Part shown: positions 14,450 to 19,198 of the stretch, one piece after another | Numbering within the stretch: the stretch's first letter is position 1 | Layout: each line of letters starts with the position of its first letter | Source: Nitrospira sp. | Lineage (GTDB): Bacteria; Nitrospirota; Nitrospiria; Nitrospirales; Nitrospiraceae | Assembly (NCBI GenBank): GCA_018242725.1 | Contig: JAFEBI010000007.1 | Location: 62,001 to 126,000 of the forward strand | Reading direction: 5' to 3' | Length of the DNA stretch: 64,000 nucleotides | Program-made: the position numbers and the translations under genes | Notes under the pieces: model-generated | Told to the model about the DNA's origin: nothing | The model's database searches: none | Seen by the model: the letters and a program-made list of their open reading frames with translations, nothing else

Positions 14450-14596
14450 ATGCTTCCATCCCTTACCGTTGCCTTTCTCATCGGGCTTGTGTGCGGAGCA
14501 CAGGCTCCTTTTTTTCCCCTCTCGATCCTGACGGCTCTCGTGGCGGCAGCTGTTGCGCTCACGCTGGTCGAACGAACCGGTAGTGCATCATTTTGA
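14450..14596 (+). pseudogene. comEC: 5' fragment of comEC, cut by a transposon
   Basis: An ATG at 14450 with GAGGAA upstream starts a hydrophobic reading frame (MLPSLTVAFLIGLVCGAQAP...) typical of the first two membrane helices of ComEC. It reaches the codons for LVERTG and then enters the inverted repeat of the inserted element, where it stops after four foreign codons at 14596. The frame continues exactly in the downstream comEC part after the second target duplication (ERTG-CLTTRST). The fragment is therefore the true N-terminus of comEC and lost its connection by insertion at 14579. Confidence 0.88.
14571..14578. repeat. Target-site duplication, left copy
   Basis: AACGAACC lies directly outside the left inverted repeat. 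The same eight bases lie directly outside the right one at 16812-16819. Confidence 0.9.
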
Positions 14597-14599
14597 AAT
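14579..14599. repeat. Left terminal inverted repeat of the transposon
   Basis: This 21-bp repeat begins GGTAGTGCATCATTTTGAAA and pairs without mismatch with 16791-16811. Similarity ends immediately inside. The transposase stop codon (14588-14590) lies within it. Confidence 0.93.
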
Positions 14600-15433
14600 C
14601 GCCTCAGCCTGTTCAACTAATCCCACGATCTCGTTAATCGACCAGACATGATCGGTCACGCCAGCGGCCATAGCCGGAGTAACCCGAAGCGTCTTATGGA
14701 TACGGCAGAAGTTGTAATGCATATAGTGCAGGGCAACCGATAACGCGTGGTTCTCGATCTTCTTCGAGAACGCATTGGTGAGCCTGGTGAATCGTCGGAT
14801 ACTCATCCGCATGGTGAGGTTTTGACGCTCCACGTACGATGTGCTTACACAGCACATATCAGGATTACCAACCACCACCGATTTCTTGGTTCCCACACAA
14901 GCCGCAGGGCTATACCGCTTCTGTCCTTCTACGGTATCCCCATAGAGCTTGATCAGCTGGGCGAAGTCCACATCAGCACCAAAAGCCTTCTCAACGGCCT
15001 CAAGGTAAGGCTTATGCCCGTCAGCGGTAAGTTGTACGCGGTTAGATAGGCGACTCGCCAAATCATCGATAAACTCACATGCCGTAGTAGCGTCACGATT
15101 GCCAATCCTCCAAGAGGGAACCAGCTTGCTATCTGCATCAATGGCTACCCATGTCCACACATCACCAGCTTGCCCTAGCTTCCCATCTGGAACATTCTTG
15201 GCCTTGGCGTATACGAAGCTCCAGATTTCGTCTAGCTGCAGCCGTTTACATGGCAGATTCGTAAAAGTCCTATCCTGATACTCAGCGCACATCCTGGACG
15301 TATCGACAAACAGCTTAGCCACAGTATTGAATGCCACATCCGCAATGCGAGCCGTGGCCCGCATGCTGTTGCCTTCAACCAGCAAATTGATGATTTGGAC
15401 TCGCTTGGCATGGGTTAGTTTGTTCATGCCCAT
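14588..15433 (-). CDS. IS1-family-type DDE transposase
   Basis: A 281-residue protein that would cut and join the transposon ends. The N-terminal HTH is KLTHAKRVQIINLLVEGNSM followed by ATARIADVAFNTVAKL. The catalytic core starts with LQLDEIWSFVYAKAKN (first Asp), continues with VAIDADSKLVPSWRIGNRD and LTADGHKPYLEAVE (second Asp region), and ends near SYVERQNLTMRMSIRRFTRLTNAFSKK (Glu). The terminal HYNFCRIHKTLRVTPAMAAGV is typical of this group. It is a single intact ORF with no frameshift, unlike the two-frame InsA/InsB of classic IS1. Its stop lies in the left inverted repeat. Confidence 0.9.
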   Translation of the reverse strand: MGMNKLTHAKRVQIINLLVEGNSMRATARIADVAFNTVAKLFVDTSRMCAEYQDRTFTNLPCKRLQLDEIWSFVYAKAKNVPDGKLGQAGDVWTWVAIDADSKLVPSWRIGNRDATTACEFIDDLASRLSNRVQLTADGHKPYLEAVEKAFGADVDFAQLIKLYGDTVEGQKRYSPAACVGTKKSVVVGNPDMCCVSTSYVERQNLTMRMSIRRFTRLTNAFSKKIENHALSVALHYMHYNFCRIHKTLRVTPAMAAGVTDHVWSINEIVGLVEQAEAISK

Positions 15434-15576
15434 ACAATACTATTCTTTAGTTCTTAACGTCAAGCATGAAAATTCAGTTTAGATAATAGCCGATCGCAGC
15501 ATCGAGATGTCTTCTACTGTAAAGTGGTTGACAGGAGATAACTGGTTGGTATAGTAAAGACAGCTCCTAAAGATGG

Positions 15577-15673
15577 TGGAGACGGGGGCGGGAATCGAAC
15601 CCGCTCATGTGTGCATCACCACACAGTGACAGGGGGTTGCGAGCCCCCTACCTTGCCGGTCAGTCACCCCGTC
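15577..15673 (-). tRNA. Class-II, SelC-like tRNA gene with CGC anticodon and encoded CCA, inside the transposon
   Basis: The minus strand folds as a tRNA. The acceptor stem is GACGGGG/CCCCGTC (7 bp), then a T discriminator and encoded CCA (15577-15579). The T-arm is GCGGG-TTCGATT-CCCGC with a canonical loop. The anticodon stem is five G-C pairs plus an A-T pair, with loop CTCGCAA, giving anticodon CGC after U33 (reads GCG, alanine by the standard code). A long variable region of about 26 bases holds a TGTGTG/CACACA stem. The D-arm is compact and irregular (ACC-GGCAA-GGT core). Long variable arms are normal for Ser, Leu, Tyr and Sec tRNAs but not Ala, and the Ala identity pair G3:U70 is absent (C3:G70). 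Whether it is charged, and with what, is unknown. Confidence 0.7.
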
Positions 15674-15701
15674 TAAGTTTCTTATAGGTTTTGGGCTCAC
15701 C

Positions 15702-15745
15702 AAGAGCCGCCTCTTCTCCGCCTAGTAAGCAGAGAGGCGGCTCTT
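15702..15745 (-). other. 13-bp perfect hairpin between small ORF and tRNA-like gene
   Basis: AAGAGCCGCCTCT at 15702-15714 pairs perfectly with 15733-15745 around an 18-base loop. On the minus strand it overlaps the last codons and stop of the 27-codon ORF and ends about 28 bases before the tRNA-like 5' end. No T-run follows, so a processing signal or attenuator is as likely as a terminator. Confidence 0.65.
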
Positions 15746-15805
15746 GTGGTTATAGATCCAAACGCCGGTGAGCGTGGTCGCTGGATCTACAATTCTTCTC
15801 ACCAT
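15722..15805 (-). CDS. 27-residue small ORF with perfect Shine-Dalgarno
   Basis: On the minus strand AAGGAGGTGATTT, a full complement to the 16S rRNA 3' end, stands directly before an ATG (15805). The ATG opens 27 codons beginning MVRRIVDPATTL and ending in SRLSAY before TAG at 15722. It starts 18 bases after the stop of the winged-helix-like gene and its end lies inside the hairpin stem, so translation could change the folding upstream of the tRNA-like gene. The peptide is not recognised. The ribosome-binding site is the best in this element, which argues for real translation, but its length leaves doubt. Confidence 0.5.
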   Translation of the reverse strand: MVRRIVDPATTLTGVWIYNHKSRLSAY

Positions 15806-15822
15806 AAATCACCTCCTTACAC

Positions 15823-16311
15823 TTAATTAGCAAGACCGTTAGATTCTTCAACTGAGTCCTCTTGTTGAGAGGTTCTGTACTGATCTTCTAGGATGTTTAA
15901 GCCCGTATTAGTAAGCCGGTATTGCCGCACAATATTTTCATTGTCAATTCGCTTGGACCATTCAATCATATCCTCGAATTCGACTCCCCACCTTTTGAAT
16001 AAGACTCTTATTCCAACTACGACCGCAGGAATCCCTTTAGGTGTTGTTCCAAGTCGTTCAGCTATTTCCTCTGATGTGAGTGGGCTTGGGTAAGCATCCT
16101 TCAAAGCAAACAAGAACTCCGTTACGCGATTGCTGACCCTCGGCTCTCGCCTTGAGCTCATGGCGTGAGTCCGCATTGAAACAGGCTCCTCACTGATTAC
16201 GGAAAGGGGGGGGTGCGCAATAGATAGACGGGTAATATTGAGCAGTTCCATCGCCTCACTGGCAGTGTCACACTCCACCACAGCTTGATCGATTTTCACC
16301 CTGTAAGGCAT
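15823..16311 (-). CDS. Uncharacterised winged-helix-like protein, transposon passenger
   Basis: A 162-residue protein of unrecognised family. Residues about 60-150 look like a winged-helix DNA-binding domain: VSNRVTEFLFALKDAYPSPL, then SEEIAERLGTTPKGIPAVVVG as a helix-turn-helix with strong resemblance to regulator folds, then YRLTNTGLNILEDQ as the wing and last helix. The N-terminus MPYRVKIDQAVVECDTASEA resembles a short beta-alpha module. The start is supported by CCGGAGAATTAA before the ATG. It lies within the transposon, upstream of the 27-codon ORF and tRNA-like gene on the same strand, so it may regulate the element. The function is inferred. Confidence 0.75.
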   Translation of the reverse strand: MPYRVKIDQAVVECDTASEAMELLNITRLSIAHPPLSVISEEPVSMRTHAMSSRREPRVSNRVTEFLFALKDAYPSPLTSEEIAERLGTTPKGIPAVVVGIRVLFKRWGVEFEDMIEWSKRIDNENIVRQYRLTNTGLNILEDQYRTSQQEDSVEESNGLAN

Positions 16312-16492
16312 TTAATTCTCCGGTACACTTCCAGTTGTGCAATGCAAAACCGCCACACACAAGCCCATTCTAGACGGAGTACTCAGGCGTGTCAAATTGA
16401 ATTGCGAGCGTGGAGCGTGGGTATAACTTATAAACGGGAAGTACTGTGCATATCTTGCATGTAACAAGATAAACTGTCATATATTTCAATGA

Positions 16493-16744
16493 CTAACGAG
16501 CATTTTTATTTTTACCAATTTCCCATCTTGACTGAGCAGCTTTCCTGGCGATCAATTTTCTCTGCTTGGCTGTAAGTTTTGCGGCTCTCGCTTCCCCCCC
16601 CTTCTTCCCTAACGCCACCGCCGCCGGATCTTTCTTACTGTCGTCTGGCAGGTTCTTCGAGTCGTCGGCCTCGCCCACGCTGATGTCTACTATGAGCTTG
16701 CCGAGTTGGTTGGGATCTCGCGGTCTTTTAGGTTTCTTCTGCAT
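16493..16744 (-). CDS. Small basic KGG-type protein, transposon passenger
   Basis: An 83-residue, lysine-rich protein. It starts MQKKPKRPRDPNQLGKLIVD and ends with a basic helix block, LGKKGGEARAAKLTAKQRKL followed by IARKAAQSRW. This C-terminal pattern (GxKGGxARAxxLTxxxR...IAxxAAxxRW) occurs in many short, poorly studied bacterial proteins often thought to bind nucleic acid. The frame is open to 16780, but the internal Met at 16744 fits the usual N-terminus of the family. It is the first gene inside the right end of the transposon. The role in transposition or maintenance is unknown. Confidence 0.7.
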   Translation of the reverse strand: MQKKPKRPRDPNQLGKLIVDISVGEADDSKNLPDDSKKDPAAVALGKKGGEARAAKLTAKQRKLIARKAAQSRWEIGKNKNAR

Positions 16745-16790
16745 ACCGCTAAGCATGGCACAGGTGGGACCGCTTTTCAATTACCCTCCA

Positions 16791-16811
16791 ATTTCAAAAT
16801 GATGCACTACC
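16791..16811. repeat. Right terminal inverted repeat of the transposon
   Basis: This is the exact reverse complement of 14579-14599. It contains two adjacent in-frame ATG codons (16799 and 16802) that can serve as a restart for the downstream part of comEC. Confidence 0.93.
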
Positions 16812-19198
16812 AACGAACCGGTTGCCTAACGACACGATCAACCCTCGCTCTATACTTCGGAGTTCTGTCTGGGATTATCTACTGGTCCATGGTCACCGCA
16901 CCACCGTCCCGCCACCCATCGCCAGTGGTCCAGTCCGTTGAGGAAACCGTTCAGACCGGTCGTGTGATCGTCCCGGTTCAGCATGGTGTGAGTCGTCAAA
17001 CACTTCTACTGCAGACAGATGATGGAACCATGCGCCTACGCCTAGTATGGCGCAGTTCAGGACTTACCTTACATCATGGCGACCGTGTGGCCGTCCACGG
17101 TCGCTATCATCCCCCACGAGGAACGCTGAACCCTGGTGGATTCGACTATGCCGCCTATCTTGAACATCAAGGGATCGATCTTGTCGGGACTATTGTTGGA
17201 GCTCAGGCAGTCACCTTGTTGGAGTCCGGAGCCGTGAGTCTCCGATGGCGCGGATGGAACCAGATCGATCGGTGGCGAACCAGCATCCGAGAGGCTTCGA
17301 TTCGTAGTATACGGCAACCGGCACTGGGACTTGTACTTGGCATGATCATTGGGGAACGGGGCTATCTCGAACAAGAGCTTCAAGATTGGTTCATGGCCAC
17401 AGGCACGATTCACTTGCTGTCGATCTCCGGATCACATCTCGGGCTGGTAGCGGCAGTCGTCTATTGGGTCGTGAGATTCTTGATCGTGCGGATGCCGACC
17501 ATCTTCATACTGACCATCACCAGAAGCCTGACCATTTCACAACTTGCGATACTATTCACCTGGCCCGCTGTCGCACTATACGCCCTTCTTGCGGGGGCCG
17601 AATTGGCTACTGTTCGATCACTTGTCATGATCACGATGGCGATGGTTGCCGTCTGGTTGGGGCACGACCGGCATCTGAACCATACCATGGCAGTCGCCTT
17701 GCTCCTGATTGTTTGCCATGATCCCCATGCCATCTTCGACATTTCTTTTCAGCTGTCATTTCTCTCCGTATTCGCGATGATTCAGATGATCAGCCTCATC
17801 CCGTCAGGGGACAAGGAGTCAACCCAGAGTGAGTCTGGATGGATTTCTCGCGCCACCGGCTATGGGGTTAACGCGTTGTCATTCAGCGTAGTCCTCACCG
17901 TGACCACATTCCCGTTAGTCGCATTCTATTTCAATCAGGTGCCGTGGCTTGGGATCTTTACGAATCTTGCCGCCATCCCGTTAACCGGTTTCGTTCTCGT
18001 TCCCTTTGGGCTTTGTATGGCAATCTGGGCCATGCTGACCGGTGCCGATAGTTTGGTCTGGGGAGCAGGATTGGAATATGCCTTCATGTGGTTAGTCGAT
18101 GGTGTTCACTGGTTCGCCACTATTCCGAGAGCTCAATGGCCTATCGCCGCGCCATCAATTCCGGCCATGATGCTGTTCTATGCCGGAGCCTTTGTCGCAA
18201 GCATACCGACCTTCTCAACGCGATGGCGAATGGTAGGGACCGGCTTGGCACTCGCTCTGACGATGTGGTGGCTGGTGCCTCCCGGTCATCGAGGCGACAG
18301 CGATCACTGGCGTGTCACCTTTCTTGACGTGGGACAGGGAGATAGCGCCCTCCTCGAACTCCCTGATGGACACACAGTCTTGATCGACGGTGGTGCGCGC
18401 CATGAGCGGTTCGACATGGGACGAAGTGTGATCGCGCCATTTCTCTGGAACAGAGGCATTTCGCATATCGACCATGTCCTCGGCACACATCAGCAGATGG
18501 ACCACGTCGGCGGGTTGATCTGGATCCTCCAACATCTCTCCGTGGGACAGTTCTGGGACCAAGGGGTAGAGCGGCAGGAGCAGTTCGTGACAGACCTGAC
18601 ATCGGCCATTCAGTCGGGCGGCATTCCGAAGCAAGCGGCTGTGCAAGGACAGGAAGTCTTAGACTCAGGTCCTTGTCGGCTGAGCATTCTTAATCCGCAG
18701 CAGGATGTGAGGCCTACAGGGTCCACTTCGTTGCATACAGGGACCGAGCTGAACAATCGCTCGATCGTGTCCCGATTGGACTGTGGGGCCCATTCTATTC
18801 TCTTTGCCGCCGATATTGAGGCCGGCGGGCTGCGCCAGTTGCCTGAGAGCGGACATCAGCCTGTGACGGTTCTGAAGGTGCCGCACCATGGAGCGAGGAG
18901 CTCCTTGGATCAAGGCTGGATTCGGCTGATTCATCCCCAATATGCCATTATTTCTGTTGGAGCGACCAATCCCTATGGACATCCCGCTCCAGCCGTGCTC
19001 AGGACGTACGAAGAGCAGGGGACGACGGTCTATCGCACTGATCGTGATGGAGCCGTCTGGGTGCAAGGTCGATTATCCAGTACCGAGCTTACAGTGAACA
19101 GTATGCGCGAACTTGTGATCCAACCCATCGACCTGTTCACATGCCCCTGGCGTTGTGAACAACAGAACTGGCAACGATTGTTTGCCCGATTCAGATAA
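16799..19198 (+). pseudogene. comEC: comEC main part (DNA uptake channel and nuclease-like domain), lacking its N-terminus
   Basis: ComEC carries single-stranded DNA across the inner membrane in natural competence. This 799-codon part keeps the OB-like periplasmic domain (LHHGDRVAVHGRYHPPRGTLN), the Competence membrane core (LLSISGSHLGLVAAVVYWV, then many helices to about residue 480) and the C-terminal metallo-beta-lactamase-like domain (FLDVGQGDSALLELPDGHTV, IDGGAR). The usual HxHxDH motif reads THQQMDHVGG, so one His is Gln. The first 44 or so residues are on the other side of the transposon. A shortened protein could start at ATGATG in the right inverted repeat (16799), with no clear ribosome-binding site. 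Whether that is functional is uncertain. Confidence 0.88.
16812..16819. repeat. Target-site duplication, right copy
   Basis: This is the second copy of AACGAACC. Deleting the element plus one copy joins comEC codons for LVERTG to those for CLTTRS in frame. Confidence 0.9.

Follow-up and report, generated by a model that had tools for sequence, protein, structure and literature searches.

Comparison of insertion sequences of the IS1 type shows a tRNA gene to be an occasional, recurring cargo of this family, located on the transposase strand, a short way upstream of that gene. The copy that lies in the window (the whole stretch of Nitrospira sp. DNA here analysed, 64,000 nucleotides long) is confirmed as a real tRNA gene by its sequence and its fold. 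Regarding its role, the reading here preferred, possible rather than probable, is that of a mis-decoding cargo tRNA that would be restrained by an antisense RNA and would act as a translation toxin or as defence cargo.

The tRNA gene of the window

15577..15673, minus strand: tRNA gene of 97 nt with CGC anticodon, U73, encoded CCA and a long variable arm (ARAGORN, Rfam, stem parsing)

This gene was the single tRNA called by ARAGORN in the whole window, and the Rfam tRNA model scored it at 43.9 bits (cut-off 29) in both a region-focused and a whole-genome search; a fast Rfam scan of the whole window did not pick it up. Its acceptor (7 bp), anticodon (5 bp) and T (5 bp) stems are formed exclusively by Watson-Crick pairs (17/17), its D arm is compact, and its variable arm, of 26-27 nt, includes a 6-bp stem. 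A TTCRA T-loop, U33 in the anticodon loop CUCGCAA and the encoded CCA complete the features expected of a tRNA. The anticodon, CGC, is of the alanine type (NGC), while the G3:U70 identity pair and A73 of tRNA-Ala are absent, C3:G70 and U73 being present instead. The original prediction of a genuine tRNA fold, of a long, class-II-like variable arm and of an alanine-type anticodon on a body without the alanine identity pair is thus borne out. The covariance support on which it had made the tRNA depend is present in the Rfam score, and the compensatory stem changes that it proposed to look for in homologous copies were found: when the tRNA was aligned with two relatives, both sides had changed in 4 of the 29 pairs with the stems kept, and 95% of the cells were paired, against only 42-59% in slid controls of the same three-tRNA alignment. 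The serine charging then envisaged, which would place serine at GCG codons, is on the contrary doubtful; the long arm is present, but SerRS is described as recognising this arm and as needing G73 (PMC7609411), and the window tRNA has U73.

The host genome contains 42 tRNAs according to ARAGORN, tRNA-Ala(CGC) and tRNA-Ala(GGC) among them. Since identity to any of them reaches about 60% at best, the window tRNA is, as judged by sequence, not a copy of a host gene. A supplementary decoding tRNA, such as those of many phages, here a normal alanine tRNA for the GCG codons of element or host, would agree with the CGC anticodon and the well-formed molecule. It is nevertheless highly improbable, given that the host already possesses both of those alanine tRNAs, that G3:U70 is absent, and that relatives at 76-92% identity carry CGC or GGU. 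Moreover, recoding of the transposase by the tRNAs of these insertion sequences (IS tRNAs) could be ruled out, the codons concerned being found at ordinary conserved Ala, Ser or Thr positions.

An IS1-family element within comEC

14571..14578, no strand: left target-site duplication AACGAACC
14579..16811, no strand: IS1-family element, 2233 bp, carrier of the tRNA; TIRs GGTAGTGCATCATTTTGAA / TTCAAAATGATGCACTACC, of a TIR family common to relatives
14588..15433, minus strand: IS1-like transposase, 281 aa (Pfam DDE_Tnp_IS1, E 2e-8; relatives 65-84% identical)
15434..15463, minus strand: transposase promoter-like site TTGACG-18-TATTGT (consensus scan only)
15722..15805, minus strand: leader ORF (M)VRRIVDPATTLTGVWIYNHKSRLSAY, short and preceded by AGGAGG; conserved also in L003 and L004, and similar to an ORF of L079 that begins with MRR
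15823..16311, minus strand: cargo ORF, 162 aa, weak winged-helix resemblance (HTH matches all sub-threshold)
16367..16395, minus strand: promoter-like site TTGACA-17-TAGAAT, candidate start of a cargo/leader/tRNA transcript (consensus scan only)
16493..16780, minus strand: cargo ORF, small, basic and of the KGGEARA type, probably starting at 16741; homologous ORF at the corresponding end of the element in L003, L004, L236, L268 and others
16812..16819, no strand: right target-site duplication AACGAACC

That the tRNA is borne by a transposon, as had been proposed, is upheld by the TIRs (GGTAGTGCATCATTTTGAA at 14579 and, up to 16811, its complement), by the 8-bp duplication on both sides, and by the interruption of comEC. 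This gene, unsplit in relatives, is here divided into an N-terminal piece from 14450 (14450-14578) and a remainder at 16812-19198, and the host probably represents a natural mutant for this gene. A 14-nt inverted repeat at 14483/16353 was rejected as the bounds of the element, one of its arms falling in comEC beyond the TIRs. The element is present once in its own genome. Along the minus strand it displays the basic KGGEARA-type ORF, the 162-aa ORF, the leader ORF, a hairpin, the tRNA and finally the transposase, whose start in relatives is the second Met (15427 in the window).

A small basic ORF of the KGGKARA type stands at the left end of most elements (window 16493-16780; L003 526-804; L236 2575-2700). 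In some copies its promoter and that of the transposase share a palindrome like TGCTTGAGCGCTCAAGC, so this ORF may encode the repressor of the element. A minimal element was also observed (L236 2517-3845), with the basic ORF truncated and the hairpin, tRNA and transposase kept. The gene before hairpin and tRNA often encodes a coiled-coil plus winged-helix-like protein (L003 997-1338, L064, L185, L213 and L309); three elements with related small winged-helix cargo and no tRNA (L019, L334 and L355) were checked and contained no hidden one.

Close relatives and frequency of tRNA cargo

A covariance-model search for tRNAs of the window type in 175 Nitrospiraceae genomes yielded two further ones of the same kind, in L003 (CGC, 92% identity) and L004 (GGU, 76%). 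These alone scored above 100 bits, all other matches remaining below 60 bits and resembling ordinary host tRNAs. Both lie inside IS1-type elements with gene order, leader peptide and hairpin as in the window, the L003 element showing GAGATGCA on each flank. Host Thr tRNAs also have U73, so the L004 tRNA (GGU, U73) may simply be a normal tRNA-Thr. The transposases of these two tRNA carriers are only 65-70% identical to that of the window, while the closer ones (77-84%, L005-L010) mostly come from elements without a tRNA, which indicates at the sequence level that tRNA module and transposase have separate histories. No window tRNA was found in plasmids, nor its exact 3' half in viral contigs.

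Transposase searches of GTDB genomes, Nitrospirota genomes and IMG/VR provided a set of 253 distinct IS1-like elements; a distant IS1 subgroup (A5) gave no matches in viral contigs. When these elements were explored with ARAGORN and with a cloverleaf scan that left the anticodon itself unconstrained, 20 of them (~8%), from several phyla, were found to carry 21 tRNAs of several body types. A tRNA-Glu 788 nt away in L325 was excluded as probably belonging to the host, and the tRNA of L024, poorly parsed in the stem analysis, is the weakest of the 21. All 21 are on the transposase strand, at a distance of 60-280 nt upstream of that gene in 20 cases and of 639 nt in L064. A left TIR outside the tRNA was located in 15 of the 20 tRNA elements, none being found in the other five by that search within the stretch covered. 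Control sequence (reverse strand and downstream) contained five tRNAs, with ordinary anticodons, in 402 kb, a density from which about 0.9 tRNAs would be expected within 300 nt upstream of some 250 transposases. As 20 were observed, the placement of tRNAs beside the transposase is not due to chance. In the literature searched no description of tRNA cargo in IS1-type elements was found, which is not proof of absence.

The low share of carriers would suit captured host tRNA genes decaying without function. Such decay is very unlikely, however, with stems kept through compensatory changes, place and strand fixed, no close host parent and non-random anticodons.

Among individual loci, L191 (1142-1347) contains a tandem tRNA pair in one element, a long-armed tRNA with anticodon AGC (C33, U73) followed by a Leu-type one with AGA, and a raiA RNA (157.6 bits) lies just outside an IS1-type element in L063 (4009-4226).

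Anticodons and tRNA bodies

The anticodons of the 21 IS tRNAs are GCU in five, ACU in four, CGC in three, UGC and UUA in two each, and AGC, GGU, CGU, AGU and AGA in one each; they are thus of Ala, Ser or Thr in 19 cases and ochre (UUA) in the other two. The 21 tRNAs form roughly nine lineages, judged by eye, so that the bias rests on fewer independent events, and by lineage about seven of nine are of Ala, Ser or Thr (p about 2e-4 relative to host frequencies). A34 is present in 7/21 IS tRNAs versus 1/42 host tRNAs, the latter being tRNA-Arg(ACG).

Nine short-armed IS tRNAs exhibit Arg-type bodies, with A20 after GG, a feature displayed in the host by all five Arg tRNAs and by one Ser tRNA. Each of the nine carries ACU or GCU; among non-Arg anticodons only these two keep C35 and U36, both of which ArgRS is known to read. 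Three further tRNAs are of the Leu type (A73), with anticodons UUA, UUA and AGA, and LeuRS does not read the anticodon. Altogether, the anticodon fits the body in none of the 12 recognisably Arg- or Leu-bodied IS tRNAs. The remaining long-armed, non-Leu ones show a Ser-like layout, that of L062 being 67% identical to a host tRNA-Ser, and six of seven, including the window tRNA, have U73. The two Leu-type UUA tRNAs, at L236 2775 and L289 2780, lie in IS1-type elements on viral contigs and are predicted to be natural ochre suppressors.

Hairpin and antisense strand

15528..15555, plus strand: antisense promoter-like site over the tRNA, TTGACA-16-TATAGT with TG (11/12 consensus positions)
15701..15746, no strand: GC-rich hairpin of 14 bp, 27 nt before the tRNA on its 5' side (z 8.0 relative to shuffles)

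Hairpins with z above 3 were detected in 13/20 tRNA elements against 0/40 matched windows of tRNA-less elements, in most cases 5-50 nt before the tRNA. Together, hairpin and tRNA might constitute an RNA-processing or insulating module, in which RNase P plus RNase Z/E would cleave the read-through transcript between cargo and transposase, the hairpin would shield the 3' end thus created on the cargo mRNA, and the anticodon would be irrelevant. This is the strongest rival to the mis-decoding reading, although itself rather doubtful. It agrees with the constant location of the tRNA between cargo and transposase, with the position of the hairpin, with acceptor stems in which 139/140 pairs are Watson-Crick (20 well-parsed IS tRNAs), and with the lack of an encoded CCA in several of them, but it leaves unexplained both the predominance of Ala, Ser and Thr anticodons and the ArgRS-compatible, non-Arg anticodons on Arg-type bodies.

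The tails of the hairpins are T-rich on the antisense side (92 vs 31 T of 160 positions). In many relatives the hairpin is terminator-like on that strand, the one in the window having no clear U-run; a terminator on the tRNA strand was ruled out, as U-runs are missing there. The antisense promoter-like site TTGACA-16-TATAGT is found in the window, L004 and L009, with near-consensus versions in L003, L064 and L079, and those of L003, L004, L009 and L079 occupy the matching position between tRNA and transposase. In a sigma-70-like consensus scan, scores of at least 10 were reached in 8/20 tRNA elements versus 24/224 others (Fisher p 0.0015), and the promoter looks convincing in no more than about half of them. 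Because it points back over the tRNA, and because the hairpin tends to end in antisense U-runs, these consensus features suggest an antisense RNA gene that would run across the tRNA and end at the hairpin.

Regarding which strand folds, G-U pairs occur six times in the T stems of the IS tRNAs and A-C pairs never, which marks the tRNA strand as the folded one; these counts argue against the complement of the tRNA being the functional RNA. Both strands fold far better than shuffled sequences (z -4.2 and -5.5). This last observation, the back-to-back arrangement of the antisense and transposase promoter-like sites, and the leader stop codon located in the hairpin loop in the window, L003, L004 and L079 would all be consistent with a tRNA-like regulatory element, the next rival in strength and an unlikely one. 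Leader, hairpin, tRNA and antisense RNA would then control transposase or cargo expression by attenuation or by antisense control of transposition, the tRNA serving as structure or sensor and not as decoder. Nonetheless, the leader ORF is absent from many elements, and matches in the element that could pair with the anticodon loop exceed expectation only weakly (7 vs 3.5), for which reason the loop was also discarded as an antisense to the element. Leader codons matching the anticodon were considered as well and set aside: GCG occurs in the leaders of the window and of L003, and ACC in that of L004, AGC and AGU being missing from the L079 leader.

Defence genes in the cargo slot and proposed mechanism

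The slot that the tRNA occupies in some elements is often filled with anti-phage defence genes in those that lack one. Cargo proteins were compared with PADLOC models in two sets, one hand-picked and one random, and in the latter 5 of the 10 tested gave a match. The matches comprise RmrA (L006, L197 and L377), BstA (L012, E 3e-119), SoFic (L041), PD-Lambda-2_B (L065, L210, L302 and L363), HEC-04 (L018), HEC-09 (L056) and a type II methyltransferase (L381). L197 holds RmrA-like cargo and a tRNA in one element; the protein cargo of the window element did not match any defence model. Judging from their gene content, IS1-type elements of 2-3.5 kb with defence genes between TIR and transposase are a family of small defence transposons.

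Since the same slot often holds such genes, the IS tRNAs may interfere with protein synthesis. In the preferred, mis-decoding reading, the RNA would be matured like other tRNAs (RNase P, CCA end), its body would recruit one synthetase, and its anticodon would read the codons of another amino acid (Ala, Ser or Thr) or a stop. The antisense RNA, starting between tRNA and transposase and ending at the hairpin, would keep the tRNA level down. Being unstable, it would decay, for instance during phage infection, and the tRNA would be freed to act as a toxic RNA or as a mistranslation module. At GCG codons, the window tRNA is predicted to bring in the wrong amino acid, or else to stall or compete there. 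As counterpoints, several IS tRNAs have no encoded CCA, and the effect of Ser-like bodies that read Ala or Thr codons would be mild rather than strongly toxic. The broader proposal of a mobile class of mis-decoding tRNAs, each with its antisense RNA, that on release would misread Ser, Ala, Thr or stop codons and so serve as toxin-antitoxin or anti-phage cargo is considered unlikely.

If these tRNAs are charged and used, insertion sequences would move missense and ochre suppressors between phyla, and the fidelity of the genetic code would be partly controlled by mobile elements. The link to the defence-gene slot turns natural mistranslation, as defence or addiction, into a testable proposal. 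Even if no decoder is involved, few readers will have met a transposon in which a tRNA is a standard component for regulation or processing. For annotation, a warning follows that some tRNA-Ala, tRNA-Ser and tRNA-Thr calls in such genomes are transposon cargo. The recurring pattern of various bodies, Ala, Ser, Thr or ochre anticodons, a possible antisense unit and the defence slot is more interesting than the single copy.

Comparison with known systems

The window element resembles the IS1 family in its DDE_Tnp_IS1 transposase, its TIRs and the length of its target duplication (8 bp, 8-9 bp being expected). In comparison with single-ORF IS1 relatives, the elements with cargo here described are longer (2-3.5 kb) and have a cargo slot.

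With the class II tRNA-Ser and tRNA-Sec the window tRNA shares the long variable arm and the compact D arm. However, tRNA-Ser has G73 and 7/5 arms, and bacterial tRNA-Sec has 8/5 arms and a UCA anticodon; the SelC likeness noted at first does not hold for a molecule with 7/5 arms, U73 and CGC. The selC* tRNA-Cys, reported from Nitrospirae among others, likewise combine a long variable arm with U73, but are set apart by an extended acceptor arm and by their anticodons, which are GCA or UCA.

Engineered Leu-tRNAs with Ser anticodons make cells virus-resistant. The Leu-type tRNA with AGA in L191 resembles them, being instead natural, located on an insertion sequence and known from sequence alone. 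RNA toxin-antitoxin systems such as CreTA consist of a small RNA that acts on translation under the control of its partner, in association with defence genes; no homology to these was noticed, and the toxin here proposed would be the tRNA itself.

Finally, allo-tRNAs (Mukai et al. 2017, as reviewed in PMC7609411) are long-armed bacterial tRNAs whose anticodons are at odds with their identity elements, and for irregular ones a link to transposons or toxin-antitoxin systems has been hypothesised (PMC7609411). They have 8/4 or 9/3 arms and SerRS or Ala identity elements, and the allo-tRNA likeness first suggested for the window tRNA is not sustained by its sequence and Rfam alignment, which reveal 7/5 arms together with U73 in a tRNA that resides in a delimited IS1-type element.
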